Assembly (NCBI RefSeq): GCF_000001735.4
Contig: NC_003076.8
Coordinates: 19,037,835 to 19,101,834, forward strand
Reading direction: 5' to 3'
Length of the DNA: 64,000 bases
DNA from: Arabidopsis thaliana
Taxonomy: Eukaryota; Streptophyta; Magnoliopsida; Brassicales; Brassicaceae
Positions 13,769 to 32,341 of this stretch are shown here, in pieces. The notes under the pieces were generated by a model. The model worked only from the letters and a program-made list of their open reading frames with translations, had not been told where the DNA came from and ran no database searches. Within the stretch, counting starts at the first letter, position 1. Every line of letters starts with the position of its first letter. The translations under genes were made by a program, and so were the position numbers.

Positions 13769-15366
13769 TTAGGGTTTGGAGACAACTAGAAGTAGCTCCT
13801 CCGGTTTGATGAATGTAAACTTGCAGGTATATATCCCCAACAACAAGGGGATACTCTTTAACCAAACATTGCCATCCACCAGAGAAAGCTCCATAACTCC
13901 CCAGATACACCACATTCCAAAATTTCTTCCCATTTGGATGATGGACTTTGAATATTGTTTTCTCAACCGGCATTTGATCCTTAACAGAACTTCGGATCCT
14001 CTACACACTCAAAAAAAGTTTGATTCACATATCAGTTTTTTTTATAAAAACAATCATTGCTCAATACAGAGATTTTGTTTAGAGTGTTTTTATCTTACCA
14101 GATTGTAGAGATATGCTGGCTGGAATACGGCCGTGAATTCTACAGCAGTAGATGAAGAGGCACCTGCCTCATCTCTTCGGGCTCTAACCACTTTCTCGGT
14201 CCTTTTAGATTCTTGGGATTCCTCAGCTGCCTTCTTCCCAAGTTTGAGCTTCCTTCCAACAGATTCAGCTGCGGTTGTCCGGCCACGATTACTTGACTCA
14301 GACACCACCTCTTCCTTCTTGTCATCTTCCCCTTGTTCTGTTCTGAATCTTCTAATACGACCTGATTCATCATCAATAGTAAAAACGAATCAGTTTCTTT
14401 ATAATCTGTTCATTGTTTCATAATCAGAAAAGCAAATCTTACTTGAAGATGCCAAGAAGGCTCTAGGTTGTGGAGGTTGCATCATCTCCTTCCCATCAAC
14501 TCACGGGTTGCTTAAAGATGTTGACAGTAAAGTTCATCTCTCCTTTGTGAGTGAAGGTAATAAACTCACGGGTTCCCAAAGTGTTGTCCCTCACAAACTT
14601 CTCCCATCCAGACTTCTCCATGTAGTAAAATGTCGGGTTTTTGGAGATTCCTACTTCCCAAGAGCGTCCCCATTGCGTTCTTACTTCATCTTACAGGAAA
14701 GCTCTTTGTCCGTGAAGCTTCTCACAAAGTCATAAGGAAGTGCCCGCTTTTGTTTATACAAATAAGATGCAAGAGACAATAATAATAAGAATGTAGTATC
14801 TTCAATTACACACAAAAGACAAACCCAACAAGATATTGAAAAAGAACAGAGCACAAATCTCATCCAGAAGAAACAAAGGTGAAATATAAAGCATACACAT
14901 TCAGACAGAGAACCGAGAGATTCAACAAAACCATGTTCGTTAAAGATAAAAAAAAACTGCCGTGAGGCTATTGAGACCCATATTGACCAAAAGATTCAAC
15001 CTTTAAAACACAGCTCACATTCAGACAGAGAAGCAAAAACAGTAACTTATTTGATACACATAAAGACAACTGACGAAAGATTTAACCTTTCCAAACAAAG
15101 TTAACAAGATTCAAACCTTTACGGCAAGACCCATTGTCATATAACGACAAGATTCAACCTTTAAGACAACACCCATTTGTTACAGAAAACAAAAAGTCTC
15201 AAACTTTCCAAACTATTACAAGAAATCGCCAAAATTAGAAAAACAGAGTTTTGAACATTGTTACCAAGTTCTCTGAAGAAACATCAACACTTTGAAGCAC
15301 CATGAAGAAGCTTTTGTTATTCCTTTCTTCTTTGCACCGAAGATATCCAGGGTTCGTAGTAGCCAT
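13769..15366 (-). pseudogene. Two-domain B3/REM transcription-factor gene, frame broken
   Basis: Deduced exons on the minus strand: 15265-15366 ([20 protein letters not shown]...), 14443-14746, 14099-14361 and 13769-14000. Exon borders are canonical and phases agree. Exon 2 encodes the rest of a REM-type B3 domain ([20 protein letters not shown], then [22 protein letters not shown] and FTHKG in another frame). Exon 3 is a charged linker ([20 protein letters not shown]). Exon 4 begins a second B3 domain ([28 protein letters not shown]). Three lesions: one base missing at about 14683, giving an in-frame TAA; about 10 extra bases at 14498-14507; and +1 (or +4) at about 13829, before a C-terminal [17 protein letters not shown]3/REM proteins are plant DNA-binding factors. 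As read, no full-length product is possible, although shorter products from alternative starts are. I recall a locus here annotated as a B3 family protein. Confidence 0.78.
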
Positions 15367-15833
15367 CGCTTTCGTTGTAAATTTCTTTCTCTCGTCTCTC
15401 TCTCACACTCTCTTCTTCTCTACTTATCTCTCTGATATGAATATGCACCAATCTCTCTACTTATTATTTTCTAACAAATGATTCAGTCAAAAGTGGTCAA
15501 AGTGATAAACTTGTCCTCTCAGACAGAACTTAAGACAAAAGTACAAACGTGAGATCATCTTTTTTTAGATCACATACACAATGACACAAACGTGAGATCA
15601 TCTTTTAGATTACAGTATAGTTCCATATGAACTTGGGCTGAAAATATTGGGCCTATAACTAAAAGACCAATTCATTCTTTCCTCACAACTAAAAAGCCCA
15701 CCAAAACGCAAAAATATCACAAAGCTTTGATTTGGGGTTTAACAAGGGTTACTACAGTTTCCACCATTTCCCTGAAGAAGACGAAGAAGAGGAAGAAGAG
15801 GAAGAAGTCGAAGCTGTTCATCAATCGTCCGAA
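15367..15833. promoter_or_regulatory. Shared divergent promoter between the B3 gene and nMAT2
   Basis: The two divergent start codons are 467 bp apart. The interval contains tgggcc/ggcctat near 15648 and agccca near 15695, GGCCCA-type (site II-like) elements often found upstream of plant genes for organelle proteins. A CT-rich stretch lies by the B3 start. The frame upstream of the nMAT2 ATG stays open back to about 15693 but has no ATG; its acidic run (EEDEEEEEEE) would be leader sequence. Confidence 0.55.
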
Positions 15834-18041
15834 ATGCGTAGAAGCTTCTCTGTTTTGGGTCCTTACAAATGGCTAAAACCTTCTTCTACATATACCAACG
15901 TTTACTGCTTCGTCACAAATCCTCCTCTCATTTCTAACCCTAACAACGGCTCTGCGATTTTCCGATATCTATCTTACTTCGCACCTCAACAACGAAGACA
16001 ACAACAACAAGCACCAGATCCAGATGATCCAGCGAATCTATTGAAAGAAGATGGAGTATCTCTCTGTTCTCAGATGTGGCTTGAGAATTTCAAAGAACCT
16101 GACAAAACCGCTACTAATTTAACCTCGTATCTTCGTAGATTCGAGTTATGGGTATTAGCTTATCAGAAAGTTTGCTGTGATGAATTAGGTGCTTATGTTC
16201 CTCGTAGCTCTATTCAAAGATCAGCTTTAGAGAATTTGTTAGCTTTAAGAAACTCTGTTCTCGATGATCGGTTTAAATGGGGTTCTCGGTTGGATTTCTA
16301 TATTAAATCTCCTAGAGATAAGACCGATTACGAGTCGTTGTCGAAGAGGAAGATTAAAGCGATTTTGACTACTACGCAGCCTACTCCGTTTCAGGATAGG
16401 ATAGTTCAGGAGGTTTTGTTGATGATTTTGGAACCGATATACGAATCTCGGTTTTCGCAAAAATCGTTTGCGTTTCGGCCCGGGAGGACCGCGCATACGG
16501 TGTTGAGAGTGATTCGGAGGAATTTCGCGGGTTATTTGTGGTATGTTAAGGGTGATTTGAGTGTTGTGTTGGATGGAATGAAAGTTGGTTTTGTGATTAG
16601 TTCTTTGATGAGAGATGTTAGAGATAAGAAAGTGATTGATTTGATCAAATCTGCGCTTGTTACACCTGTTGTAACGAGTAAAGTTGAAGATGGTGAGAAG
16701 AAGAAGACTAAGAAGAGAAAATATCAGAAAAAACGGGTTTTGGCTGAGGATGAGCCCAAGCCTGATCCTTATTGGTTAGAGACGTTCTTTGGTTTTGCTC
16801 CTGAGGAAGCTGGGAAGTCTCCGCAGTGGGGACATTGCGGGATTCTTAGTCCTCTTTTGGTTAATGTATGTCTTGACGAGCTTGATCGTTGGATGGAAAC
16901 GAAAGTGAAAGACTTTTACCGTCCTTCGAAAAGCGATGTTATATGGAATAACCCTGAAGGAGAAGCGGATCAAGGAAACACTTCTTGGCCGGAATTTGTT
17001 CCCACGAGTGGTCCTGACAAAACGAGGAAAATGGATTACGTTAGATATGGAGGTCATATCTTGATTGGTGTCCGTGGACCTCGAGCTGATGCTGCAACGT
17101 TAAGGAAAGAGCTTATTGAGTTTGTTGATCAGAAGTATATGCTTAGACTCGACAATGAGAATCTACCCATTGAACATATAACAAAAGGTATAATGTTTCT
17201 TGATCATGTTTTGTGTCGCCGAGTTGTTTATCCGACTCTGAGGTATACTGCGACCGGTGGGAAGATTATAAGCGAAAAAGGCGTGGGAACGCTTTTATCC
17301 GTTACAGCGAGTTTGAAGCAATGCATCAAACAGTTTCGAAAGCTGTTATTTATAAAAGGAGATCGTGATCCGGATCCACAGCCTTGTTTTAGAATGTTCC
17401 ACGCAACTCAAGCTCATACGAATAATCAGATGAATAAGTTTTTGACTACGATTGCTGAGTGGTATCGGTTTGCAGATAACAGAAAGAAAATTGTGAATTT
17501 CTGTTCTTATATTATCCGTGGTTCACTTGCTAAGCTTTATGCTGCAAAGTATAAACTTAGATCAAGAGCAAAAGTGTATAAGTTCGCTAATCGGAATCTG
17601 AGCCTTCCGTTGTTGCAGAAGAAAGGTCAGTCACCAGAATATCAGAATCTCTTAAGAATGGGTCTTGCTGAATCGGTTGATGGACTTGTTTATACAAGAA
17701 TGTCTCTAGTTCCAGAAACTGATTACTCGCCTTTCCCGGGTAATTGGAGGCCCGAGCACGAGAAGTTTCTGATCGAGTACTTAACACTCGATGAACCGAA
17801 AACCTTAGAAGAGCAAAAGAGATTTATTAGAGAGAAAGGGCTCGTTTCGCCTCAGGATTACACATCGATGTTGGTTTGGAACTATAAGAGAAATGCTATT
17901 CCAATGGATCAAGTTTCAATTCTAAAGGATCAACCTTTCTTGTTGGGATCATCAAGTACCTACAACCGCGACAATGATGATCAGAAGAATAAAGAAGAAG
18001 ATGAAGATAGTGAAGATGGGCTTCGCATTGCACGCATGTAA
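15834..18041 (+). CDS. nMAT2: nMAT2, nuclear-encoded mitochondrial group II intron maturase, 735 aa
   Basis: Single-exon gene starting at the first in-frame ATG (MRRSFSVLGPYKWLKP). The basic, Ser-rich, acid-poor N-terminus fits a mitochondrial presequence. A reverse-transcriptase-like region runs from about 120 to 480 with recognisable blocks (PFQDRIVQEVLLMILEPIYE; FAFRPGRTAHTVLRVIRR; WGHCGILSPLLVNVCLDELD). The catalytic YADD position reads YGGH near residue 405, so polymerase activity is presumably lost. Maturase domain X follows (NFCSYIIRGSLAKLYAAKYK). There is no HNH endonuclease. From the literature, nMAT2 helps splice several mitochondrial group II introns (nad1, nad7 and cox2 introns), supporting complex I and cytochrome oxidase biogenesis. 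The acidic C-terminus (KNKEEDEDSEDG) is unusual for a maturase. Confidence 0.95.
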   Translation: MRRSFSVLGPYKWLKPSSTYTNVYCFVTNPPLISNPNNGSAIFRYLSYFAPQQRRQQQQAPDPDDPANLLKEDGVSLCSQMWLENFKEPDKTATNLTSYLRRFELWVLAYQKVCCDELGAYVPRSSIQRSALENLLALRNSVLDDRFKWGSRLDFYIKSPRDKTDYESLSKRKIKAILTTTQPTPFQDRIVQEVLLMILEPIYESRFSQKSFAFRPGRTAHTVLRVIRRNFAGYLWYVKGDLSVVLDGMKVGFVISSLMRDVRDKKVIDLIKSALVTPVVTSKVEDGEKKKTKKRKYQKKRVLAEDEPKPDPYWLETFFGFAPEEAGKSPQWGHCGILSPLLVNVCLDELDRWMETKVKDFYRPSKSDVIWNNPEGEADQGNTSWPEFVPTSGPDKTRKMDYVRYGGHILIGVRGPRADAATLRKELIEFVDQKYMLRLDNENLPIEHITKGIMFLDHVLCRRVVYPTLRYTATGGKIISEKGVGTLLSVTASLKQCIKQFRKLLFIKGDRDPDPQPCFRMFHATQAHTNNQMNKFLTTIAEWYRFADNRKKIVNFCSYIIRGSLAKLYAAKYKLRSRAKVYKFANRNLSLPLLQKKGQSPEYQNLLRMGLAESVDGLVYTRMSLVPETDYSPFPGNWRPEHEKFLIEYLTLDEPKTLEEQKRFIREKGLVSPQDYTSMLVWNYKRNAIPMDQVSILKDQPFLLGSSSTYNRDNDDQKNKEEDEDSEDGLRIARM

Positions 18042-18219
18042 GAAACCAGAAAACTGTTTGACTTTTACTCTTATATCAAGCTTGTATAATTTGATGCCAT
18101 ATTAGCCATTCCCTATCCGGTTTGTTTCGGCTATTGTATGCAAAACACCAAATTTATTAGCATTGGTATTTTCAGAAATAGTTCAGTTATCTAAAGCTTA
18201 TGTGATCTTTAGGCAGATA

Positions 18220-18717
18220 CAATAAAACCTCTATAAATTAATATTCGATAAATTAATAATTTTTATAAATTAATAAACTATTCAGGTTCCGCGTTGGGAC
18301 CAATGTAAAAATTGATACAAATCGATAAATTAATAAGATAATATTTTTTTTTAAAATTTATATAAATATACGATCTCATCAATAGTATAAATTAATAATA
18401 GTATAAATTTACTAATATATATTATAAATATCATATGTAAAATATGACTCTAGTAATGTTTTTCTTCAATTTTAATAATTCTTTGTAGTTTTCAATTCTA
18501 GTTTTTACAACATCAAAAAAATTTTGTATTGCTTTCTAACTTGTAATTGGTTTCATAAGGACTATTGATTATAAAGAACAAACTTCATTTTATATCAAAT
18601 TTTTGTAAGAATTTACAAAATTTGTATAATTTTTATTAATTTATCGATAAATTAATCTCTCTCTAAATTAATAAATTTTCTTGGTGCCAATATTATTAAT
18701 TTATAGAGGTTTTATTG
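18220..18717. mobile_element. Emigrant-like MITE, 498 bp, perfect 24-bp terminal inverted repeats
   Basis: The left end CAATAAAACCTCTATAAATT... (18220-18243) and the right end at 18694-18717 are exact reverse complements over 24 bases. The element is flanked by TA at 18218-18219 and 18718-18719, the target duplication of Tc1/mariner elements. The interior is AT-rich without an open frame. The termini differ by one or two bases from the Arabidopsis Emigrant family (CAGTAAAACCTC...) as I remember it. Confidence 0.9.
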
Positions 18718-18820
18718 TAACTCTCTATTCAAGACTTTGAACGACCATTGCTTCTTACAGTGAATAAGCCCGATTACTCTTAAAGTACATTATCACTATT
18801 GTGTTACCTAACACTTTTGG

Positions 18821-19357
18821 TTATTTCATATCTAACATACTTGTAAAAGCTATAGGAATCAGAACCATGTAAAACAAGACATCGTTCTCTTTCGTAAATG
18901 GAGATTTCACAGCCTTTTTTCTTTTTGTGAATTTAGTTTCGCAACTTCCCGGTGCATCCATTGCAGCACTCATAAGCATGGTAGCTGTTTTGTAATCACG
19001 CGACTTAACAGTGTCTAAAGATTGGTTTAAGGAATCAATAGCTTCGGTATAAAGTTCGAGGCAATCAAGTAACGGCCTCTCCACTTCATATTTATCCTCC
19101 TTGAGAATCTTGTCAACCATTCCTTTCAAGCTAGTCGTTTTCGAAACAGCGTTCTTGGTCGATACGAAGACCAAACCTTCAAGACTCTTTGCGGTTTTGC
19201 TCTGCGGATTCTCTTCGAGAGACTTGACGCAAAAATCATATTTGAGTTTCGGGTCTTTAGTTGTAGCTTTTTTGCAAGAATCCCGAATCAGAGATTGTGC
19301 GGTTGCGAAACAGTTTAAGAGGAGAAAGAACATAACAAGGTAAAGCGAGAATTTCAT
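18821..19357 (-). CDS. Invertase/pectin methylesterase inhibitor family protein, 178 aa
   Basis: Intronless. Start chosen at MKFSLYLVMFFLLLNCFATAQ, a clear signal peptide (about residues 1-21), and the only ATG giving one. The mature four-helix-bundle domain has the four family cysteines, C28, C43, C99 and C139, which form two disulfides. Family motifs include SLIRDSCKKATTKDP and KSRDYKTATMLMSAAMDAPGSCE, and the hydrophobic tail MVLIPIAFTSML is shared with most cluster members. Such proteins are secreted and inhibit cell-wall/vacuolar invertases or pectin methylesterases; sequence alone does not settle which. First of eight same-strand inhibitor-like genes. A conserved upstream block lies at 19471-19500. 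Confidence 0.9.
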   Translation of the reverse strand: MKFSLYLVMFFLLLNCFATAQSLIRDSCKKATTKDPKLKYDFCVKSLEENPQSKTAKSLEGLVFVSTKNAVSKTTSLKGMVDKILKEDKYEVERPLLDCLELYTEAIDSLNQSLDTVKSRDYKTATMLMSAAMDAPGSCETKFTKRKKAVKSPFTKENDVLFYMVLIPIAFTSMLDMK

Positions 19358-19470
19358 TTTTTCTTTTCTGTGCGGAAGCAGAAACAAAGATTATTGAGAA
19401 TCGACTGATGAATAATTTGAAACTTTGTGATCAAATTTATAGTAAAATGAAAGTATGGCTTTTTATAGAA

Positions 19471-19500
19471 TGCTCATGTCACGCTTTACCACTCCGCTTA
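19471..19500 (-). promoter_or_regulatory. Conserved inhibitor-cluster promoter block, copy 1
   Basis: Plus strand tgctcatgtcacgctttacc followed by actccgctta, about 115 bp upstream of the ATG at 19357. Related blocks precede five other genes of the array. Confidence 0.6.
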
Positions 19501-19610
19501 GCTTCATGTGTCCTAATTTTTCGTTTTGACACTCTTTCTTATACGTCGTCGTTTTTGTTTGTTTGTTTTTCCCAAAGAAATAGATTATTTCAGTGTTGAA
19601 AGAACTGGAT

Positions 19611-19635
19611 TTGTCCAAAAAAAAAAAAAAAAAAA
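19611..19635 (+). mobile_element. Micro-retroinsertion: ttgtcc plus poly(A), 12-bp flanking repeats
   Basis: Six bases, ttgtcc, and an A-run are flanked by aaagaactggat at 19599-19610 and 19636-19647. This is a poly(A)-tailed insertion with almost no body, flanked by what looks like a target-site duplication. Confidence 0.65.
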
Positions 19636-20395
19636 AAAGAACTGGATCAATGTCTAGTAAATAAAAATATATGCATTGATCAAATTGTCAAAGAAATGGA
19701 TCAATGTCTAGTTTATCGTTTTGTTGTAGATTAACTCGAAATCTTTTCCCTCTTTGTGTCCTCACTCACATCACATGGACATGATACTGAAAAAGTCACT
19801 AGCTAGATCATTCATCCTACAATTGTTTCACCACATTTACCTTCAACTTTGGAATTCTCTCACAATGAATTACATAAAAGAAACATGGTTATGATATACG
19901 TAGTCAAATCAAAAAATTTAGTTTCTCTTCATGCACCACCATCTTTTTAGAAATCGGAATAAATTGCAATGTTCTTCTTTCTTGAACATATAATATTAGA
20001 CGGCCACCACATGAACGGTCCTAAGGTCAACCAAAACTTTTGAACATCCATCAATATTCTCTATCATTGGCCTCTTTGAGTTATCCCATGACCATGAGTG
20101 GTGACTGGATAAATACTCATTTGGTTTAAGATATTATGTACATACATAATTACTTGGTAACACATAATGTAAGTATACAATATTGATGGATGTTCAAAAG
20201 TTTTGGTGGGTGTAAGTGTACGTATGTGAAGAAATAAATCAGATAGATTTTGATTTATCTAAACTTTCTGTGATCCTTATTCAAGACTTTGAAAATGCTA
20301 CGACCATTGCTTCTAGTGAGCAAGAAAGTTACTCTAAGGTACATTATCAGTACTATTATCTTTAATCCGATGTGTTAATACAATTTTTGGTGATT

Positions 20396-20926
20396 TCATT
20401 TCAACATATTTGTAAAAGCTAGAGGAATCAGAATCATCTGATACAAATTATCGTTCTCTTTCGTAACCGGAGATGGCGCTTTTCTTTCTTTGAATCCAGT
20501 TTCACAAGTACTTGGTGTATCCATTGCAGCACTCAGAACCGTTTTAACGGTTGGGTAATTACGCGATTTAACGCCCGCTAAAGCTTCGTTTAAAGAACCA
20601 ATAGCATCGGTATAAAGCTGAAGGCAATCACGTAACGGCATTGCAGTCATCTTGTTAACTTTCTTCCCCTTGATAATCTTGTCAACAGTTCCTTTCAAGG
20701 TCGTCGCTTTGGTCACGGCGTTTTTCGTCGATGCCATGACTAATCCGGCGAGATCTTTTGCGGTTTTGGCCTGCGGATTGGTTTCGAGAGACGTGACACA
20801 TAGATTGTATTTGAACTTCGGGCTTGTAGCTGTAGCTTTCTTGCAAGAATTTCGAATCAAAGTTTGTCCGTTTGCCAAACCGTTTGAGAGAACAAAGAAC
20901 GTAACAAGGTAAAGCAAAAATTTCAT
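20396..20926 (-). CDS. Invertase/pectin methylesterase inhibitor family protein (type A), 176 aa
   Basis: Intronless; starts MKFLLYLVTFFVLSNGLANGQ, a signal peptide. Four family cysteines at 28, 43, 101 and 141. Ends in the shared hydrophobic tail MILIPLAFTNMLK. Predicted secreted inhibitor of an invertase or PME. Its first ~17 codons (to 20877) are the left boundary of a 2.7-kb tandem duplication; the duplicated N-terminus survives in the chimeric gene at 23311-23595. The conserved promoter block lies at 21075-21102. Its immediate 5' leader is nearly identical to that of the chimera. Confidence 0.9.
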   Translation of the reverse strand: MKFLLYLVTFFVLSNGLANGQTLIRNSCKKATATSPKFKYNLCVTSLETNPQAKTAKDLAGLVMASTKNAVTKATTLKGTVDKIIKGKKVNKMTAMPLRDCLQLYTDAIGSLNEALAGVKSRNYPTVKTVLSAAMDTPSTCETGFKERKAPSPVTKENDNLYQMILIPLAFTNMLK

Positions 20927-21730
20927 TTTTCTTTTCTTTGAGGAAGCAAGAAACAAAGGTTAATGAGACTCGATGATGAAGAAGTTTAGTAACTTGGTGA
21001 TCAATTTATAATGAAACGAAACAAATAATTTAACGGTTTATGATTTGTAACTAACAAAACGGCTCTTTTAGGAGGCTGATGTCACGCTTTACCACTCCGC
21101 TCACGTCGAGTGGCCTAATTGTTCGTTTTAACACTCTTTCTTATACGCTGACGTTTTTTTTTGGCTATTTTTTACTTTTCTTTTTCAAACAAAAGTGTCA
21201 AAAGATATAGAGTTCTAAACGTTTTGTTTTTGGGTTAGACCAGGAATCATTTTGTCGTGGATTAGAACGTTTTGTTTTTGGGGCATATAATGGTTTAATA
21301 GAAAAAAAATCATCACAATGATTCGTAGCAATATCTTTTCCGCGTTATTGCATATCAAAATTTTATGATAATGAATAAGTTAGAGTGGTTTTAGTCCATG
21401 CCAATATTTGCAACCATTCAAAACTATATGTTCCGACTTATTTTTGTTCAATTGGTTGAAAATTTTGAACAAACTTTTAATCACTGAATTTCAACCAATT
21501 TTTATATACACTTTAGTTAACAAAAATCGCGTATTTGCTACTTTAATAAAGATAGTTTGTTTTCTTGTAAGGTTTCTAAATTGTCAATATTATATGTATA
21601 TAGTACCAAAAAATTAAAAGAGATCATATATGTAAAGCGAAATTTTATTTCCATCAATTAGATTCTTTGCTCTCAACTTTCTATAGTAAACAAATTAATC
21701 GATGTTATATGAACCACTTTGATAAATTTA
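20927..21730. other. Intergenic between type A and type B inhibitor genes
   Basis: Promoter of the type A gene, then a stretch duplicated at 23596-24385. A plus-strand frame at 21408-21617 without an ATG is open in both copies, but I see no reason to call it a gene. Confidence 0.5.
21075..21102 (-). promoter_or_regulatory. Conserved inhibitor-cluster promoter block, copy 2
   Basis: Plus strand ggctgatgtcacgctttacc then actccgct, about 150 bp upstream of the type A ATG at 20926. Confidence 0.6.
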
Positions 21731-22255
21731 TTACAACATAGTAGTAAAAGCCAAAGGAATTACAATCGTCTTATACAAAATATTGTTCTCGTTAGTAATC
21801 GGAGACTTCTTTTCTGCTTCCTTGAAATCATCCTCGCAATCGCCTGGAGCATTCAAAGCAGCACTCAGATTACTGTTAGCGCCGTCATAATCACGCGATT
21901 TAATGTTCGCTAAAGCAGTTTTTAAAGAATCATTAGCATCTTTATAAAATCCGAGGCAAAGTTTTAAGTCTTCCACAATATCCTGATATCTCTGGTCCTT
22001 GAGATCCTGTGCAACGATTCCTTTCAGGTTCGTGATTTTTGCCGCAACGTTCTTTGTCGATGCTAGGGCCAAATCTTCGAGAGTAGTTGCGGCTTTGCTT
22101 TGTGGATCTTGCGTAAGAGATTGGACGCAGAAATCGTATGACGATTGCGGGTCTTTCGCAAAAGCTTTCTTGCAAGAATCTTGAATGAGAGTTTGAGCGG
22201 TTGCGAAACCGTTCAAGAAAAGAGAGAAGATCACCAATGAAACCAAGAACTTCAT
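21731..22255 (-). CDS. Invertase/pectin methylesterase inhibitor family protein (type B), 174 aa
   Basis: Intronless; the start MKFLVSLVIFSLFLNGFATAQ is a signal peptide. Cysteines at 28, 43, 100 and 140 match the family's two disulfides. Acidic helix LKDQRYQDIVEDLKLCLGFY and conserved C-terminal AFTTML. Predicted apoplastic invertase or PME inhibitor; published Arabidopsis invertase inhibitors map to this cluster, but I cannot assign a symbol to a copy. The near-duplicate at 24386-24910 differs at about 20 of 174 residues. Unlike the A- and C-type genes, its upstream region lacks the conserved promoter block. Confidence 0.92.
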   Translation of the reverse strand: MKFLVSLVIFSLFLNGFATAQTLIQDSCKKAFAKDPQSSYDFCVQSLTQDPQSKAATTLEDLALASTKNVAAKITNLKGIVAQDLKDQRYQDIVEDLKLCLGFYKDANDSLKTALANIKSRDYDGANSNLSAALNAPGDCEDDFKEAEKKSPITNENNILYKTIVIPLAFTTML

Positions 22256-23310
22256 TTTTTTGTTTTTACTTTGAGAAGAAGTAAGTTAGAATTGATTGAT
22301 GAAAAATATTGTCACTCTGTGTTTCCCTTTAATTTATAGTAAACCAGAGAAAATAATTTTATGGTAAGACTCTTAAATTTGGAAAAGATCCCAATTCAAA
22401 AAATAGATTTCAATCAATATTGAGATATATTCTACATTTACTTAATACTGGTAAGATAATCCTAAATTCATAATTTATTTGTTTGAAATTGGTCAACATG
22501 CAATAATAGTCAACTTGTTTGAACTTTTAAGGTATTTCCATTTTCTAAAAATCATGCATACTGTCAAAATTAATAACTCTTCTACCATTATGCTATTTCA
22601 ACAACATTTTAAGGAAAAAAAAATCAAAGATATTATCTTTTAACATTTATTTCTTATATCATAGATTATTAGATTTATTTGTTTTCCATATATTCACGAA
22701 TTTAGTCAAAGATTTTGAGTGTTTCCAAAATCATATATAACACAAATAAATGAGAACTCTTCTCTCCCATTATGCCATTGTCATCATCATTCTGCATTCA
22801 TCCACATTTGATTTTAATAACAGAATTAAAGATAATATTTTTTAATAATTAGATTATTTATTTAATTGTTTATGCTATTGGTCAACATGCAATAATATTT
22901 TTCATAGCAACTCTCCTCTCTCCATTCCATTGTGCCCACTCTGTTCAAATGTTAGATTATGGATTTATCATTCGATCCCACCTTCGAACCAAATCAAAGT
23001 TTTTTTTGCTGTTGTTTCTGGATTTGGTGTAAAGATTTAATTAAGGTTAATAAAACTTAACGTTTATAAGAAACCATATCAGAAAGAAAAACACACAAAA
23101 AGTTACATTTCTTATCTGTTTTATCATTTATTTTGACAAATGTATTCTTACTTTTATTGTATTTATTGGTTTTTGTAATACGGTAGTGAGTAAATTAGTC
23201 CATGTCATTTATATACTATTACTACGTTAAATATTCTCATTTGAGTCACGTAGGATTCCTAAAAATACACTTGCATATGTTCATACCAAAAAAAAAACAT
23301 GCATGTAGTT
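22256..23310. other. Intergenic, duplicated with 24911-26083
   Basis: AT-rich. Most of it recurs in unit 2, including gttagattatggatttatc and the block around taattaaggttaataaaact. Near 23280 it carries the older copy of a poly(A) micro-insertion (tcatacc plus A-run) whose flanking repeats have partly decayed. No gene. Confidence 0.5.
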
Positions 23311-23595
23311 TCATTTCAGCATATTTGTAAAAGCAAAAGGAATCAAAATCATCTGAAACAAAACATCGTTATCTTTTGTAAATGGAGATTTGAGAGATTT
23401 TTTTCCTTCTTTGAATCCAATTTCGCAACTAGGTGGTGCACCCATTGCGGCACTTATAACCACGCTAGGAGTTTTATAATCACGCGATTTAATGATCGTT
23501 AGAGCTTCCGTTAAAGAATTTGTAGAATATAAATAAAGTTCGAGGAAACCGTTTAAAAGAATAAAAAACGTAACAAGGTAACGCAAAATTTTCAT
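23311..23595 (-). CDS. Chimeric, internally deleted inhibitor gene at the duplication junction, 94 aa
   Basis: Open frame from MKILRYLVTFFILLNGF to AFTNMLK. The first 17 codons and all upstream DNA match the type A gene (20396-20926). From Leu-Glu-Leu-Tyr onward it matches the second half of the type C gene (26084-26578), for example SLTEALTIIKSRDYKT and AAMGAPPSCEIGFKEGK. The seam is between 23545 and 23546, where unit 1 ends and unit 2 begins. The join is in frame and keeps a signal peptide, but the first two helices and three of the four family cysteines are gone. It keeps a promoter with the conserved block at 23747-23773. Expression is possible; inhibitor activity is unlikely. It may be a pseudogene or an unannotated small secreted protein. 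Confidence 0.7.
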   Translation of the reverse strand: MKILRYLVTFFILLNGFLELYLYSTNSLTEALTIIKSRDYKTPSVVISAAMGAPPSCEIGFKEGKKSLKSPFTKDNDVLFQMILIPFAFTNMLK

Positions 23596-23746
23596 TTTTC
23601 TTTTCTTTGAGGAAGCAAGAAACAAAGGTTAATGAGAATCAATTGATGAAGAAGTTTAGTAACTTGGTGATCAAATTTATAATAAAATGAAACAAATAAT
23701 TTAACGGTTTATGATTTGTAACTAACAAAACGGCTCTTTTAGGAGG

Positions 23747-23773
23747 CTGATGTCACGCTTTACCACTCCGCTC
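23747..23773 (-). promoter_or_regulatory. Conserved inhibitor-cluster promoter block, copy 3
   Basis: Duplicate of copy 2 (ctgatgtcacgctttaccac...), upstream of the chimeric gene. Confidence 0.6.
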
Positions 23774-24385
23774 ACGTCGAGTGGCCTAATTGTTCGTTTT
23801 AACACTCTTTCTTATACGCTGACGTTTTTTTGGCTATTTTTTACTTTTCATTTTCAAACAAAAGTGTCAAAAGATATAGAGTTCTAAACGTTTTGTTTTT
23901 GGGTTAGACCAGGAATCATTTTGTCGTGAATTAGAACGTTTTGTTTTTGGGTTAGACCATGGTTTAATAGAAAAAAATCATCACAATGATTCGTAGCAAT
24001 ATCTTTTCCGCGTTATTGCATATCAAAATTTTATGATGATGAATAAAGAATGGTTTTGTCCGCTAGCTGATTAGTCCATGCCAATATTTGCAACCATTCA
24101 AAACTATAGATTCTGACTTATTTATGTTCTATTGGTTGAAAATTTTGAACAAACTTTTAATTACTGAATTTGAACCAATTTTTATATACACTCTAATTAA
24201 CAAAAATCGCGTATTTGCTACTTTAATAAAGATAGTTTGTTTTCTTGTAAGGTTTCTAAATAGTAAATATTATATGTATATAGTACCAAAAAATTAAAAG
24301 AGATCATATATGTAAAGCGAAATTTTATTTCCATCAATTAGTAAACATATCAATCGATGTTATATGAAACACTTTGATAAATTTA

Positions 24386-24910
24386 TTACAACATATTAGT
24401 AAAAGCCAAAGGAATCAAAATCGTCTTAAACAAAATACTGTTCTCGTTGGTAATCGGAGACGTCTTTTTTGCTTCCTTGAAATCATCCTCGCAATTGCCT
24501 GGTACATCCAAAGCAGCACTCAGATTAATGTTAGCGCCTTGATAATCACGCGATTTAATGTTCGCTAAAGCAGTTGTTAAATCATCATTAGCATCGTTAT
24601 AAAATCCGAGGCAAAGTTTTAAGTCTTCCACAATATCCTGATATCTCTGGTCTTTGAGATCCTGTGCAACGATTCCTTTCAAGTTCGTGATTTTTGCCGC
24701 AGCGGTCTTCGTCGATGCTAGGACCAAACTTTCGAGAGTAGTCGCGGCTTTGCTTTGTGGATCTTGTGTAAGAGAATTGACGCAGAAATCGTATGACAAT
24801 TGCGGGTCTTTCGCAAAAGCTTTCTTGCAAGAATCTTGAATGAGAGTTTGAGCGGTTGCGAAACCGTTTAAGAAAAGAGAGAAGATAACCAATGAAACCA
24901 AGAACTTCAT
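24386..24910 (-). CDS. Invertase/pectin methylesterase inhibitor family protein (type B'), 174 aa
   Basis: Duplicate of the type B gene: same length, same signal peptide MKFLVSLVIFSLFLNGFATAQ, same cysteines (28, 43, 100, 140), no indels. About 20 amino-acid differences, several on the predicted surface helices (KNV to KTA near 68-71; KTALANIKSRDYDG to TTALANIKSRDYQG). By eye roughly 38 nucleotides differ, and most change the protein. Predicted secreted inhibitor. No conserved promoter block upstream. I recall published endosperm/seed invertase inhibitors from this array but not which locus. Confidence 0.92.
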   Translation of the reverse strand: MKFLVSLVIFSLFLNGFATAQTLIQDSCKKAFAKDPQLSYDFCVNSLTQDPQSKAATTLESLVLASTKTAAAKITNLKGIVAQDLKDQRYQDIVEDLKLCLGFYNDANDDLTTALANIKSRDYQGANINLSAALDVPGNCEDDFKEAKKTSPITNENSILFKTILIPLAFTNML

Positions 24911-26083
24911 TTTTTGTTTTCACTTTGAGAAGAAGCAGAGAAAGTTAGAATTGATTGATGAAATTTTTGGTCACCCTGTGTTTCAATTTATAGTAAAACA
25001 GAAAAAATAATTTTATGGTAATTGTTGAAAATTTGGAAAAGTTCCCAATTTGAAATAGATATCATTCCATATTGAGATATATTCTACATTTAATGAATAA
25101 TGGTAAGATAGTCACTTTTCATGATTCTTTCCTAAATTCATAATTTATTTGTTTGGAATTGGTCAACATGCAATATTTGCTTTCCATATACGCACGTTCA
25201 AAGTAATTCCATTTTCTAAAAATCATTCATACTTTCAAAATTGATATCTCTTCTACCATTATGCTATTTGAACAACATTTTAAGAAAAATCAAAGATTAT
25301 TTGATTTATTTGTTTTCCATATATTCACAAATTTAGTCAACGATTGTGAGTGTTTCCAAAATCATACATAACAGAAATAAATGAGAACTCTTTTCTCCCA
25401 TTATGCCGTTGTCATCATCATTATGCATTCATCAACATTTGATTTTTATAACAGAATTAAAGATAATATTTTTTAACAATTTGTTCGTTTATGTTTAGAT
25501 TATTTATTTAATTGTTTATGATATTGGCCAACATGCAATAACATTTTTTTAACAATTTGTTCGTTTATGTTTAGATTATTTATATAATTGTTTATGATAT
25601 TGATCAACATGCAATAATATTTTTCTTAGCAACTCTCCATTCCATTGTGCACACTCTGTTCAAATGTTAGATTATGGATTTATCGTTCGATCCCACCTTC
25701 GAACCAAATCAAAGTTTTTTTTCTTGCTGTTGTTTCTGGTCTGGATTTGGTGTAAAGATTTAATTAAGGTTAATAAAACTTAACGTTTATAAAAGAACAT
25801 CAGAAAAAAAAAAAAAAAGTTATATTTCTTATCTCTTTTAGCATTTATTTTGACAAATGTATTCTTACTTTTATTGTATTTTTTTCGGTCTTTGTAATAC
25901 GGAAGGATTGATACGGTAGTGAGTAAATTAGTCCATGTCATTTATATACTTTTACTACGTTAAATGTTCTCTTTGAGACGTAGGATTCCTAAAAATACAC
26001 TTGCATATGTTCATACCAAAAAAACACTTGCACATGTAGTTTCATTTCAGCATATTTGTAAAAGCAAAAGGAATCAAAATCAT
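24911..26083. other. Intergenic, duplicated with 22256-23310
   Basis: AT-rich promoter of B' plus the region downstream of the type C gene. Includes a micro-insertion at 26011-26023 and an internal local repeat (aacaatttgttcgtttatgt at about 25476 and 25549). No gene. Confidence 0.5.
26011..26023 (+). mobile_element. Micro-retroinsertion: tcatacc plus poly(A), about 14-bp flanking repeats
   Basis: tcatacc plus a short A-run between acacttgcatatgt (25997-26010) and acacttgcacatgt (26024-26037), one mismatch. The same insertion is present in the other duplication unit near 23280, so it predates the duplication. Confidence 0.55.
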
Positions 26084-26578
26084 TTAAAACAAAACATCGT
26101 TATCTTTTGTAAATGGAGATTTGAGAGGTTTTTTTCCTTCTTTGAATCCAATTTCGCAACTAGGTGGTGCACCCATTGCAGCACTTATAACCACGTTAGC
26201 GGTTTTATAATCACGCGACTTAATGATCGTTAGAGCTTCCTTTAAGGAATTTGTAGCATCCGAATAAAGTTCGAGGCAATCACGTAATGGTTTCTCACTA
26301 TACATTTCAAATCTATTCTCCTTGAGAATCTTGTCCACAATTCCTTTCATGCTTGTTGTTTTCGACACTGCGTTTTTCGTGGATAACATGACCAACCTGT
26401 CAAGACTACGTGCAGTTTTGCTCTGTGGATTCTCTTCGAGAGACTTGACACAGAAGTTGTAATGAATCTTCGGGTTTTTATCTGCAGCTTTCTTGCAAAA
26501 ATCTTGGATCAAAGATTGTGCAATTGTGAAAGCGTTTAAGAGCAGAAAGAACATAGCAAAATAGAACAAGAACGTCAT
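26084..26578 (-). CDS. Invertase/pectin methylesterase inhibitor family protein (type C), 164 aa, C-terminally truncated
   Basis: Intronless; starts MTFLFYFAMFFLLLNAFTIAQ, a signal peptide. Cysteines at 28, 43, 101 and 141 are intact. After NDVLF the frame meets TAA (complement of 26084-26086). The following codons still encode the family tail MILIPFAFTNMLK. The chimera at 23311, which shares this 3' half, has CAG at the same codon, so the stop arose after the duplication or in this copy only. The protein lacks about 14 C-terminal residues but retains the whole disulfide-bonded bundle and may still fold. The conserved promoter block is at 26718-26744. Confidence 0.85.
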   Translation of the reverse strand: MTFLFYFAMFFLLLNAFTIAQSLIQDFCKKAADKNPKIHYNFCVKSLEENPQSKTARSLDRLVMLSTKNAVSKTTSMKGIVDKILKENRFEMYSEKPLRDCLELYSDATNSLKEALTIIKSRDYKTANVVISAAMGAPPSCEIGFKEGKKPLKSPFTKDNDVLF

Positions 26579-26717
26579 ATTTTTTTAGGGAGTATAGAAA
26601 ATTTGACGAAGAGGTTTTCACTTTCTTACTCAATTTATATTTAAAAAAACTAATAATGTTTAAGGTTTTTTTACCAGATAAGACTTGGTATCTAACACAA
26701 CGGCTTTTTTTTAGAGT

Positions 26718-26744
26718 GCTCATATCACGCTTTACCACTCCACT
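26718..26744 (-). promoter_or_regulatory. Conserved inhibitor-cluster promoter block, copy 4
   Basis: Plus strand gctcatatcacgctttacca then ctccact, about 140 bp upstream of the type C ATG at 26578. Confidence 0.6.
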
Positions 26745-26905
26745 TGTTCGTATGACCAAATTGTTTGTTTTAACTAATAACACTCTTTATTTATATGTTG
26801 TCGCTAATTTTTGGCCTCTATTTTTGTTAAATGTTAAAATAAAAACATTGCGCGATGTCAAAAAAAGAAAGAAAGCATTATGCAACATGTTTTCCCTCAT
26901 GTCAA

Positions 26906-26930
26906 CTTTTTTTTTTTTTTTTTGGTAAAA
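26906..26930 (-). mobile_element. Micro-retroinsertion: TTTTACC plus poly(A), 12-bp flanking repeats
   Basis: On the minus strand TTTTACC and an A-run are flanked by ttgacatgaggg. On the plus strand ccctcatgtcaa occurs at 26894-26905 and 26931-26942. Confidence 0.65.
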
Positions 26931-27073
26931 CCCTCATGTCAATTTTTAATGATATTCATAACGGGAATAAGTCTCCCATGCATGATACAAAACATGATCT
27001 TCTTAATATCAATCTCCAGAAGAAACCTATAATCACTTAGAAAACAAAAGATACGTACTTCGACAAATGAAGA

Positions 27074-27085
27074 TTTTTTTTTTTT
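27074..27085 (-). mobile_element. Pure poly(A) insertion with 9-bp flanking repeats
   Basis: Twelve T's between aaatgaaga at 27065-27073 and aaatgaaga at 27086-27094. It looks like a reverse-transcribed tail with no body; slippage alone would not duplicate the flank. Confidence 0.5.
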
Positions 27086-27618
27086 AAATGAAGAAAATTT
27101 TGCTAACATGTTTATGATCTTACTGACTTTTCTAGAAACCGCGAGTCCATGCTTCCTTTACTATATAGTCTATATTATTGCTTCATTATTCTTGGTCTCA
27201 ATTTGGTGTTCTAGTAATGTTTTCGTTGTTTGGATATTTTCTGAACGATATATCAAAGCTTATTCTTTACGCTCTCGTTTTTAGCACTGGTAAGCTATAT
27301 TGTCACGTATGCAACGAATGAGAATTGAGGGCGTTAATGTCAAAAAATAAAAAAGCATTATGCAACATGTTTTCTTTTTTCATTGGTTCAGAACTTTAGA
27401 TCTTAAAGATGACGTAGATGGCCTCAGAGAGAGAGGAAACTCAAGTTTTGTATAGTAGTTAAATAAATAAGATTGGGAAAAATTGGGGGATGGAGGAAAT
27501 AGACCATTTCTACGTTAACAAAAACACACACATGAAATAGACACATTCAAAAATATTGGACTACTAGTTCTATGCATCAATATATTCATTAAACGTTAAC
27601 CAATTGCTCTTCTACAAC

Positions 27619-28173
27619 CTAGCCGTTAATATGAGCATTGAAACAAAAATAATACGGAATGTTGATCATGTCGAAGAGAACATCGTTCTCTTTCTTCACT
27701 GGAGATATCTGGTGATTGTCATCATTGAATTTCATTTCGCAAGCTCTTGGTTTACCTTTTGCCATATCCATATTTCCTATAAATTTCTCGTAATCCAGTG
27801 TTTTGAGGTATTTCAAAGCTGAGTTTAACAACTCATAGCCCTCAGAATAAAGCTTGAGGCACTCCCGTAAGAACGTATGACTCAACTTATTCTTATACTT
27901 TCTTTCATTCAAAATGTTCTCTACAGTTCCTTTCACTTTTGTTAGGTTTGATATCGCGCTATTAGTACATACCACAGTCAATTCATCAATATTTCTTACT
28001 TTTTGGCTCTCTGGATTCTCTTTGATGGATGTGATACAAAATTTGTAAATGTATGGTTCCGCATATCTTGTATTTTCCTTGCAAGATTTTTGAATAAGAG
28101 AATCCGCCACTCTATTGGCCATGAAACCATTGAGGTGGAGAAAGAGTACAACAAGGTGAATCAAGAATTTCAT
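27619..28173 (-). CDS. Diverged invertase/pectin methylesterase inhibitor-like protein, 184 aa
   Basis: Intronless; starts MKFLIHLVVLFLHLNGFMAN, a signal peptide. Family cysteines at about 31, 46, 105 and 145, with extra cysteines at 69 and 177. It shares the RVADSLIQKSCK / NPESQKVRNIDEL pattern with the gene at 29858-30421, and the two form a subgroup with a longer N-terminus and a polar end (FCFNAHING) instead of the AFTNML tail. The SPVKKENDVLF motif is retained. Predicted secreted. Inhibitor function is uncertain because family residues have drifted. Promoter block at 28298-28326. Confidence 0.85.
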   Translation of the reverse strand: MKFLIHLVVLFLHLNGFMANRVADSLIQKSCKENTRYAEPYIYKFCITSIKENPESQKVRNIDELTVVCTNSAISNLTKVKGTVENILNERKYKNKLSHTFLRECLKLYSEGYELLNSALKYLKTLDYEKFIGNMDMAKGKPRACEMKFNDDNHQISPVKKENDVLFDMINIPYYFCFNAHING

Positions 28174-29857
28174 TGTTATTTGTTTTTGGGAAGCCCAACA
28201 CTAAATGAGACTAAAGAATATTTTTTAATCTAATAAATAAGCAAACAAAAATCTTCTAACATGAGACTGCTATTCAAAGACTTGCTTTTTTTAGATTACT
28301 CATGTCATGCGTTACCACTCCGCTTACTTCGTGGAAATGGTACTTCATTGCCTTCTTTTTTGTCAACTTTTCTTCTTTATGTTAACAATCTCGCATGTTT
28401 ATTTGGAAGTTCTAGAGGGTTACCACAAGGTTGTTCTCTATCTTTGTTATTGTCACAAATTTCCTCTCTAGTCTCATGAGTATAAGACATCAGCTGACGA
28501 TAGGGTCTAGATCATGACATCGTCCATAAAAAGGTTAAATGAGTGAGATTCACCTCTGAACATTAAAAACAGTTTAGCAAAGAACACCATATAAATTAAA
28601 CAATGACTTTACGAAGAACTATATATAAACAACAAAATTAATATAAATCGTCAAAATTGAAAACATACTAGAACTTCTAGATATTGATACTAACATTTAA
28701 GATAGAGAGCAAAAAAAGAAAAAGCCTCAAAATTGGGTTGTATGATAAGGGACTTATTCATTTTCCAATATAGAAAATCAACTATAGTTAAAGGTGTAGT
28801 ATAAGCAATCCAACAACAAGAACAACAACAACAAAAACATAAGAAAAAAAAGTAAAGAGTTTATTGTGCTTTCGAAAATATGAACTACAATTAATACATG
28901 AGGCCCTTCTCCTTAGGTTTTTGTGGAATATGACAAACACATGAAAATTCATCCACATGATTGATTGATTGATTGATTGAGATGATGACTCTTCTTGGAT
29001 TGGCTATAACCGGGTTTACTAGTTCTAACTCAACACCAATTAGCAATAAGTAAAAAGACTCAAATCTTTTATATTATAGTAGCTGGTGTTGAGTTATCTC
29101 CACTTTCAATTTGGGATACTCTAACATCTATAACTAATGCTAAAGTTGCTTCAAATCAGTAGAGTGAATAGAAATGGTACCAAGGACAATGATCTGCAAA
29201 AGTACATAACCATCGAGTTTTGATCTTCATATATGTCAGAAACTAAAGAACATATAGAAATATGTATACTGAACAGAGACTTAACCATCACTAGAAATGA
29301 AAAACAAGGTATATGTTCATCTCTATTGATATATGGCATGAAAGTTTTATTTTATCAAATGAATATCAACTAGCTAGGTTTACTTTCTTTTTCTCTGAAG
29401 AAATAAATTTTCTTTTCATGTGAAGCATTTTATGTGGAAAAGAGACGATTTACCTTCCACTAATTCTCTGTGTGAAGTCATTTCTTAACACTTAAATATT
29501 AAAGTCTAAATTATATCAGGGAAGATATAAGCTAATGAAACGTAGTTTAACATGGCCTTCTTTCATGAATTCACCTCTCTCTTCAGAATTATTCTTAAGA
29601 AGTACTATATATATGTAAAGAAATTTTTTAAAATTGAGAAGTGTGGTAAGAACAAAACTTTTTATTAAATATGTGTTGTAGCTTGTCAAAGAAATTTAGA
29701 AAAGGTGAAAATAGGAGACATGATTTGAAATGGTGCAACATAGATTCATTCCTATCTCGATGAAAGTTGTACGTAAACTCTGACCTTATATTTTTTCATT
29801 AATTCATTGTTGTATAACAAACTAAGAAACATTACCGAGGGGCTGTTAGGCTAGACA
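28174..29857. other. Intergenic between inhibitor genes
   Basis: AT-rich with a (gatt)n microsatellite at about 28960-28979 and a CAA-rich stretch near 28812-28835. No gene or RNA recognised. Confidence 0.5.
28298..28326 (-). promoter_or_regulatory. Conserved inhibitor-cluster promoter block, copy 5
   Basis: Plus strand actcatgtcatgcgttacca then ctccgctta, about 125 bp upstream of the ATG at 28173, retained although this coding sequence has diverged strongly. Confidence 0.6.
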
Positions 29858-30421
29858 CTATACGATGTCTGGCCTTATATGAGCATAGTAATTAAAAGAC
29901 TGAGCAATGTCGACGGTGTCGAATAGAACATCGTTCTCTTTCGTCACCGGAGATTTCTGTTTATTATCGTCATTGAATCCCATTTCACACTCTCTCGGAA
30001 CAACTCTTGCATGACGAATAGTATTGTGGACTTTATCGAAATCCCGCAATTTAATGTACTCTAAACATTTGGTTAACAAGTTAGTGCCCTCAGAATAAAG
30101 CTTAACGCAAACGCGCAACATCTTCTCACTCATTTTACTCGTATACTTTCTGTCCTTCAGAATCCTCTCCACAATTCCTTTCACGTTCGTCATGTTCGAA
30201 ATAGCGTTTTTCACTCCTACTCCGATCAATTCATCGATATTTCTTACTTTTTGACTCTCCGGGTTTTCGCTGATAGATGCAATGCAGAACTTGTAGTAAT
30301 GTGGTTCCGACATTTTTGAAGCTTTCTTGCAAGAATCTCGAATCAGGGAATTTGCAACTCTGTTGGCTGTGAAACCATTTAAAAGGAGAAAGAACACAAC
30401 AAGGTAAAACAAGAGCTTCAT
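29858..30421 (-). CDS. Diverged invertase/pectin methylesterase inhibitor-like protein, 187 aa
   Basis: Intronless; start at MKLLFYLVVFFLLLNGFTAN (signal peptide), the first ATG downstream of the promoter. Family cysteines at about 31, 46, 105 and 145, plus C119. Shares NPESQKVRNIDEL and KENDVLFD with its neighbour at 27619-28173. The C-terminus is polar (FNYYAHIRPDIV), so this pair lost the hydrophobic family tail. Predicted secreted inhibitor-like protein of unproven target. Promoter block at 30551-30580. Last member of the array before the peroxidase. Confidence 0.87.
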   Translation of the reverse strand: MKLLFYLVVFFLLLNGFTANRVANSLIRDSCKKASKMSEPHYYKFCIASISENPESQKVRNIDELIGVGVKNAISNMTNVKGIVERILKDRKYTSKMSEKMLRVCVKLYSEGTNLLTKCLEYIKLRDFDKVHNTIRHARVVPRECEMGFNDDNKQKSPVTKENDVLFDTVDIAQSFNYYAHIRPDIV

Positions 30422-31336
30422 TTGTTTGTTTGGGAAGAACACTAGAGAGAATAGATTAAAGAACTATAGAGAGTTAACTTGTGATCCAATTTATAAGCAA
30501 CCAAAATTTTCCAACATGAAAGTTATTGAAACACATGCTATTCTTAGATGGCTCATGTCACGGGTCGCCACTCCCCTTAAACATAAGGCTACAATTAACG
30601 AAAATTGCGGTGGACCGAAAGCCAACCTCAAAAACATCACAACAACAACAGTTCAAGTTGAAACGTTGTAATGATATCCCAAATTAAAACCAAGTTTGAT
30701 CAATATTGTAATTTGTAATTTCCACGAAATATTAAGGCTATATGTATTAAGATTGCCATTCAAACCAGTAATTAGCATAATATTAAAATAACTAGGCATG
30801 CATTATAGGCGTAACTTTTTGTGGTTTAACTGTAAAATAACTGGAATAAATAGAATATACAGCTAAAATCTTACCATTTACAATAAAATTCATGGAATAC
30901 AATTTTTATTCATCCCTCTACAAAAAAAAAAAAAACTAATTTCAAAGAAAATTAAAGGATTAAATCACTAGTATATTCATATTGCAGTGGAAATTAATGA
31001 AATGACAATAATCCTCTCTAATTCTGTGATTTCTGTCATTTAACTGGAAACAAATGAATTGATTGTTGTGTAACATTATCAAATATCAACTACAAAATGT
31101 ATGTTAACTACAATTGTTCGATATATAATATGTTATTTTATCTATATACTTTCAATACAACAGTTTGAATTTTCATGGAAAAATTAAACATCCCAACTTG
31201 AATTGTTACAAGATCTTGCTTATAATAGGTAGTTATTAAACATATATACCAACCAAACCTTTCTTCTCCTCAACTCCTCCGCAAATAAAACAGAAATAAT
31301 ATTATATTTATATGGTTTTGTGTTTTCTTTTTCTTC
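30422..31336. other. Intergenic
   Basis: Promoter of the last inhibitor gene, then AT-rich DNA and the peroxidase 3' UTR. No gene. Confidence 0.5.
30551..30580 (-). promoter_or_regulatory. Conserved inhibitor-cluster promoter block, copy 6
   Basis: Plus strand gctcatgtcacgggtcgcca then ctccccttaa, about 130 bp upstream of the ATG at 30421; the most diverged copy. Confidence 0.5.
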
Positions 31337-32341
31337 TTAAACGTTGAGATTGTTGAAGTGGTCGCACCTACGTCTCACTTCTCCATCTTTATCGCCCTTG
31401 ACGCCGACCGTGCCAAGTTTCTCCATCGCACGAGCGAAATCCTCAAAGAATGCTGTCTCGTTAGTTGCGTATAGATCCACAAACGGCTTGGTGCTGTTGT
31501 CTTTAATAAGGATGTGGTCAGACGCTAAAAGCCCTAGCCCTCGCTTTAGGTTCTTGAAGTACATGTTGTCGAACTTTCCTGGAGTCATCACGTCGTTAAA
31601 CGCGGCGATTGTATCATCCACGGTGTGGTTTTTGCAAAGATCTTTGAGAGCGGCTGCGAATCGCGGGTTGATTTCTTTATCAGCACGGGATCCGTAGAGT
31701 CTGTCGGAAAACTCTTTGCAGTGAGAGAATCCAATGGTGTGAGCCCCGCTTAATGCTACCATCTCGCGAAGACTAAAACCGTTTTTCTTGAATATCCCGT
31801 GGATGTCAGGAACAGTCTGGTTTGCCATTGGGACATTTCCTCTGACTTTATGAGCTTTGGATTCGAATCCGTCTTTACGACCAAGCTTTACGTCAAAGTA
31901 AGGTCCTCCTACCATTGTGACAAGGTCACGTGTAGCCTGCGCTAGAATATCCGCGCATGATACTACACCAGGACAAGACAACTCGAGAGCTGTCTTGATG
32001 CGGGTGACGATGTCAAAAGCATCTCCCGGGAGGGAATCATTGAGATCATCATCGCGTTCCGCTTTGTTGAACGAGTTGGTCGCGATCAAGACAGATGCAT
32101 CACAACCTTCAAGGAAACAATCATGGAAAAAGAGACGGAGGGTCCCGGCCGCAGTTGTTGGTTGTTGGACTTGTTTGGTTGTAACGGCTTCACGCACAAT
32201 TTTGTGGAAATCAGGACATGTTTTTTGGTAATAGTCCGTTCTCAAGATAGCGACATCAGCCGATATAATTGGTGCAACCACGGCGAGACAGAAGAGGATA
32301 ACAAAGGGATTAAAACCACGAGAGAATTGCATATTCGACAT
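31337..32341 (-). CDS. PER65: Class III secretory peroxidase, 334 aa
   Basis: Intronless. Signal peptide about residues 1-28, then the mature domain. Distal heme pocket: R69, F72 and H73 in LRLFFHDCFLEGCDASVLI. Proximal heme ligand: H201 in ALSGAHTIGFSHC. Eight cysteines at 42, 75, 80, 123, 129, 208, 236 and 328 match the four conserved disulfides. The salt-bridge region SCPGVVSCADILA is intact. Length is normal. The enzyme oxidises phenolics and other donors with H2O2 in the apoplast or cell wall, typically in lignin and wall cross-linking; the individual substrate is unknown. Most plant class III peroxidase genes have introns, so the intronless structure is notable. The symbol is from memory of gene order (At5g47000). 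Confidence 0.93.
   Translation of the reverse strand: MSNMQFSRGFNPFVILFCLAVVAPIISADVAILRTDYYQKTCPDFHKIVREAVTTKQVQQPTTAAGTLRLFFHDCFLEGCDASVLIATNSFNKAERDDDLNDSLPGDAFDIVTRIKTALELSCPGVVSCADILAQATRDLVTMVGGPYFDVKLGRKDGFESKAHKVRGNVPMANQTVPDIHGIFKKNGFSLREMVALSGAHTIGFSHCKEFSDRLYGSRADKEINPRFAAALKDLCKNHTVDDTIAAFNDVMTPGKFDNMYFKNLKRGLGLLASDHILIKDNSTKPFVDLYATNETAFFEDFARAMEKLGTVGVKGDKDGEVRRRCDHFNNLNV

Follow-up and report, generated by a model that had tools for sequence, protein, structure and literature searches.

A chimeric, internally deleted inhibitor frame at the seam of a tandem duplication in an Arabidopsis gene cluster

The window, a stretch of 64,000 nucleotides from chromosome 5 of Arabidopsis thaliana, lies inside an inhibitor gene cluster for which the available parts of three papers list seven genes, AT5G46930-AT5G46990 (PMC8990755, PMC3741192, PMC6274938). 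Eight cluster frames share one strand (Table 1). Giving the published codes by chromosomal order to L, A, B1, B2, C, D and E leaves one frame over, designated X, whose absence from the seven-gene lists agrees with the initial annotation, which had suggested that it may be an unannotated secreted peptide. Our literature search returned no mention of the codes AT5G46945, AT5G46955, AT5G46965 or AT5G46975, and no paper on truncated, fusion or tandem-duplicate pectin methylesterase inhibitor genes combined. X is an eighth, unlisted frame, a status defined by those lists and that search. As a genome query it found nine matches, namely X itself, seven others in the cluster and one on C1; the best after X were C (86%), L (59%) and A (59%). 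Against the Pfam PMEI profile (PF04043) it scored 25.2 bits, below the curated cut-off of 29, and covered only profile positions 78-150 of 156. The PF04043 matches listed for the genome (112 reported, E up to 0.001) include the other seven cluster frames but not X; domain surveys may omit X because its score falls under the cut-off.

Table 1. Coordinates in the window of X, its parents, the duplicated units and associated promoter features
Feature	Position	Strand	Description
X	23311..23595	-	chimeric 94-aa open frame, stop codon included in coordinates
A-derived part of X	23545..23595	-	codons 1-17, signal-peptide-like start; identified by alignment with the A 5' end; one-base seam ambiguity
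C-derived part of X	23311..23544	-	77 codons + stop; end of second bundle helix to C terminus; runs past the TAA of C
Seam	23544..23546	.	fusion point and tandem-duplication boundary; from BLAST segment ends and codon comparison
A	20396..20926	-	intact 176-aa PMEI-domain gene; AT5G46940 by order; parent of the 5' part of X; Pfam PMEI 103.5 bits
B1	21731..22255	-	174 aa, in copy 1; AT5G46950, InvINH2, by order
B2	24386..24910	-	174 aa, in copy 2; AT5G46960, InvINH1/AtPMEI12, by order
C	26042..26578	-	parent of the 3' part of X; AT5G46970 by order; open frame stops early, TAA 26084-26086
Duplicated unit, copy 1	20877..23545	.	self-BLAST and alignment
Duplicated unit, copy 2	23546..26276	.	self-BLAST and alignment
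20-bp promoter element of X	23750..23769	-	155 bp upstream of ATG; pattern GGAGTGGTAAMGCRTGAYAT
20-bp element sites of L, A, X, C, D	19476-19495, 21079-21098, 23750-23769, 26722-26741, 28302-28321	-	
136-bp identical block, X and A promoters	23689..23824 (X), 21018-21153 (A)	-	alignment

Comparison with its neighbors bears out the proposal that X is an in-frame chimera of the start of A and the second half of C. The alignment to the two parents is free of gaps across 285 columns, with 6/50 sites differing from A at the start and 14/235 from C over the remainder. X matches A through codon 17 and takes up C at codon 102, leaving 84 codons missing (X has 94 positions; C, up to and including its TAA, has 178). 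The type C gene had been placed at 26084-26578; its second half is indeed the parent of the 3' part of X, but the end given for it is a premature TAA, and homology to X extends past this codon to 26042. At the position of the TAA in C, the codon is CAG in X and A and TAC in L, and the C-terminal end that X keeps is cut off in C. Codon 17, at the seam, is TTG in A alone; X, L, C, B1 and B2 all have TTC there. The TTG of A therefore appears to be derived, and the position of the seam is uncertain by a single C. Judging from these codons, TTC was probably also the codon of the A parent, and the junction would read TTC-CTC with one ambiguous base; at most one base of microhomology is certain.

The seam is also the boundary of a duplication. 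Self-BLAST of the region, the comparison suggested with the original claim of a 2.7-kb unit ending within X, pairs 20877-22619 with 23546-25289 (89.4%) and 22849-23545 with 25571-26276 (89.6%); since the pairs end there, the boundary lies at 23545/23546, inside X and subject to the same one-base ambiguity. The two 2.7-kb copies mismatch at 188/2584 ungapped sites (7.3%), plus indels. By stretch, divergence is 12.0% at the A/X start and 4.4% on the A/X promoter side (34/771 sites), 6.5% in B coding sequence, 10.9% in B upstream sequence and 8.9% further upstream, and 6.0% in X/C coding sequence. The dS is 0.107 for X/C and 0.095 for B1/B2 over the full frame, similar values that fit one duplication; the former also resembles two of three non-coding stretches (8.9% and 10.9%), and nothing in the coding sequence of X pointed to gene conversion. 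With around 7e-9 mutations per site and year, a difference of 10% would correspond to some 7 million years, close to when A. thaliana and A. lyrata separated, as a rough guide only. B1 and B2 differ at 34/524 sites (93.5% identity); the accessible text of a published comparison prints 93.5% identity for InvINH2 (At5g46950) and InvINH1 (At5g46960), both of 174 aa (PMC5797552). Upstream of B2, copy 2 also contains a sequence of roughly 95 bp directly repeated at 92% identity (25463-25555 and 25538-25632).

An exon structure that restores a full protein had been named as one finding that would overturn the chimera. When the missing segment, taken from three paralogues, was searched for in 23000-24380, we obtained just one 8-aa chance match (E 1.5), whereas in 24380-26600, used as a control, the same queries gave E values of 1e-20 to 2e-56, with the match of C to itself the strongest. 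Because the 84 codons do not occur in 23000-24380, splicing cannot restore a full inhibitor, and rescue of X by a split exon is ruled out.

What the join removed can be read from the fold model of A (pLDDT 88.6, pTM 0.83), in which helices 59-86, 92-120, 124-147 and 155-173 follow an N-terminal part. Residues 18 to 101 have no counterpart in X; they comprise the N-terminal hairpin region, all of bundle helix 59-86 and the initial third of helix 92-120, and include C28, C43 and C101, so that of the four cysteines of A only C141 survives, as X C57. The predicted loss of the first helices and of three of four cysteines is thereby confirmed. X still has the SAA motif (X 48-50), named as a PMEI feature in the available text of PMC8990755, and the hydrophobic C-terminal end. 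Its own model is poor (pLDDT 61.0, pTM 0.27; helices 2-37, 41-50 and 74-92) and merges the signal-like start and the stretch after it into the single helix 2-37; each model was built with seven window proteins, shallow data that may partly lower the confidence for X yet sufficed for A. A search of solved structures with X gave one irrelevant match (E 0.57). X resembles the PMEI/invertase inhibitor family in deriving from two members, in aligning over its full length bar the one 84-codon gap and in keeping the SAA motif, the last of the four cysteines and a hydrophobic C terminus. It differs in lacking the hairpin, the first bundle helix and three of the four cysteines. Among the features expected of a functional PMEI, X has the SAA motif and lacks a domain score above the cut-off, four cysteines forming two disulfides, and a hairpin with a four-helix bundle. 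Without the hairpin, one and a third of the bundle's four helices and the partner cysteines for both disulfides, the product should, as the models predict, fail to fold into a working inhibitor.

The suggestion that X might encode a secreted peptide fared less well, retaining in its favor only the hydrophobic start. The usual signal-cleavage position of the paralogues (residue 20) falls past the seam and is missing from X; a candidate cleavage site follows G16, as judged by the (-3,-1) rule. To this are added the poor fold model and the constraint analysis below, in which selection on X was not demonstrated.

The promoter, in contrast, was retained as the initial annotation had proposed: upstream of X lie a 20-bp element, a TATA-like sequence and a leader, with 136 bp identical to A. 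An identical run of that length was reached in 0/5000 permutations, the copies averaging 7.3% difference, and the block may reflect recent gene conversion or strong promoter constraint. The 20-bp element stands 119 bp upstream of the ATG in L, 129 in D, 144 in C, 153 in A and 155 in X. Genome-wide, seven sites match its pattern with at most two mismatches, five of them in the cluster (0 mismatches), one at the C1 paralogue (1) and one on C3 (2), and every one of the six sites within one mismatch stands upstream of a member of this inhibitor subfamily; the reversed control pattern has one genome site. The exact fit in five cluster genes is by construction, as the pattern was drawn from those genes, whereas the site at the C1 paralogue, with the first in-frame ATG 131 bases from the element start, and the near-absence elsewhere are not. 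E has a weaker site (30555-30574, 3 mismatches, 134 bp upstream), and no element was found upstream of B1 or B2 at up to three mismatches. The element appears nearly private to this inhibitor subfamily.

Tests for selection on X itself did not reach significance. X and C differ pairwise by 7 non-synonymous and 5 synonymous changes. In a branch model (77 codons, six sequences) omega was 0.35 on X and 0.63 on the rest, a difference that was not significant, and comparison of the X value with omega 1 gave twice the lnL difference as 2.8, below the usual 3.84. In the C-derived part, with the stop codon of C treated as missing, this model placed every change on X and zero on C; read against A, differences at codons 27, 36 and 81 fall on C, so the excess on the X side is weaker than the model fit suggests. 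X has altered residues that are common to all five compared paralogues (D/E to Y at 23, A to S at 24, F to I at 3), and errors made while the junction was repaired may account for the changes in codons 22-24, immediately beyond the seam. With the four changed sites in these codons counted both in and out, neutral changes simulated under the condition of an open frame gave P values of 0.14, 0.10, 0.10 and 0.07 in four countings, and synonymous changes lay above the neutral mean in all four, though not significantly. Neutral evolution of X is not rejected (P 0.07-0.14), on small numbers.

Survival of the frame was considered separately. Eighteen neutral substitutions would leave start and stop in place and create no premature stop with a chance of 0.42, and the chance of no frame-shifting indel is 0.32, which together give about 0.42 x 0.32 = 0.13. 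There were 0 gap events in the 285 X-coding columns against 21 in 2006 non-coding columns. Aligned B coding sequence shows a lone gap, one column wide, in 525 columns, though both B frames are open, and this is probably an alignment edge. The open frame of X is mildly unexpected, yet it is not evidence of function.

Chimeric genes and pseudogenes arise by unequal exchange in tandem arrays, and X shares with them a 5' part from one paralogue, a 3' part from another and a position at a duplication boundary. An excess of tandem-derived pseudogenes has been described in plants, according to the available text of PMC7935947. A and C flank X in the array, with B duplicated between them. From this layout we infer that an ancestral array A-B-C underwent a 2.7-kb unequal exchange that would have joined the 3' half of C to the 5' end of A, yielding A-B-X-B'-C. 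Unequal crossing-over, as first proposed, thus holds in outline but not in detail, because the two breakpoints are not equivalent: the A sequence ends with codon 17 and the C sequence begins again at codon 102. Such a departure of 84 codons from register, still in phase, sets X apart from the usual tandem-array chimera and makes it an internally deleted frame and not a full-length hybrid. It excludes an in-register homologous crossover alone and points either to an illegitimate exchange, in which repair would join breakpoints without matching homology, or to a homologous A/C exchange followed by a deletion spanning the exchange point. Having inherited the promoter, leader and start of A and the 3' end and 3' flank of C, X is possibly transcribed. 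We consider it quite likely that X is an unlisted chimeric duplicate born of unequal exchange and now a junction relic, for which drift under relaxed constraint would be the most likely fate.

Published observations bear on cluster relatives or the family, none on X itself. According to the accessible portions of these papers, B1 and B2 show expression in 3-day siliques (PMC5797552); the At5g46950 promoter is termed endosperm-specific (PMC3095346), and the upstream region of this gene drives GUS in early endosperm, its array signal in 4-day endosperm not being called endosperm-preferred (PMC1939914); endosperm subtypes are enriched for PMEI-type small secreted proteins (PMC13197225); and protein lists from cell-wall extracts include At5g46940 and At5g46960 (PMC2551616). 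The silique expression and the enrichment in endosperm subtypes, together with the retained 20-bp element, are among the grounds for viewing X as a working half-inhibitor, small and secreted or membrane-anchored, made in seeds from the subfamily promoter and either binding pectin methylesterase weakly or competing with full inhibitors. The SAA motif, the final two helices of the bundle with the hydrophobic C terminus, the indel-free open frame with its lean to synonymous change, and the hydrophobic start with possible cleavage after G16 accord with such a product. Set against it are the lack of demonstrated constraint in branch model and simulation, the poor fold model, the one unpaired cysteine and the lost cleavage position; moreover, X is without the hairpin that is reported to form the AtPMEI1 dimer, and thus has no known dimer surface. 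We regard a half-inhibitor as unlikely. A more specific version, in which out-of-register exchange created in one step a young and selected half-inhibitor, a part-PMEI without a disulfide scaffold but with a seed promoter that competes, secreted or membrane-anchored, with the neighboring full-length inhibitors, seems to us very unlikely.

X could also act as RNA only, its transcript lying close enough in sequence to the A and C mRNAs (14/235 coding sites differing from C, 34/771 promoter-side sites from A) to give or receive small RNAs that tune the cluster. The common strand of all eight frames speaks against this, as does self-BLAST of 15000-34000 (E up to 1e-5), which returned no inverted match involving X, and we hold the idea to be highly improbable. 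Tandem near-repeats are in principle prone to error, and X might be an assembly or sequencing artifact that collapsed two genes; but the copies differ at 188/2584 sites and by indels, which far exceeds error rates, and X has its own substitutions on either side of the seam, so that we find an artifact scarcely credible.

As a junction relic, X would be a neat fossil of an ordinary process, an in-frame hybrid at the duplication seam of a tandem array with both parents still beside it. It adds an eighth frame to the seven listed in papers for a seed-expressed cluster, and, if it is expressed, short-read and array signals credited to its parents could partly be its own. The subfamily-specific promoter element may prove more useful than X itself.

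Two further features of the array deserve mention. The 3' parts of B1 and B2 differ by 16 non-synonymous and 3 synonymous changes (omega 1.4), against 24 and 10 over the full frame (omega 0.64), ratios that would make relaxed or positive selection on this part possible. Downstream of gene A lies a 29-bp perfect inverted repeat (20030-20058 and 20179-20207), possibly the remnant of a small transposon.
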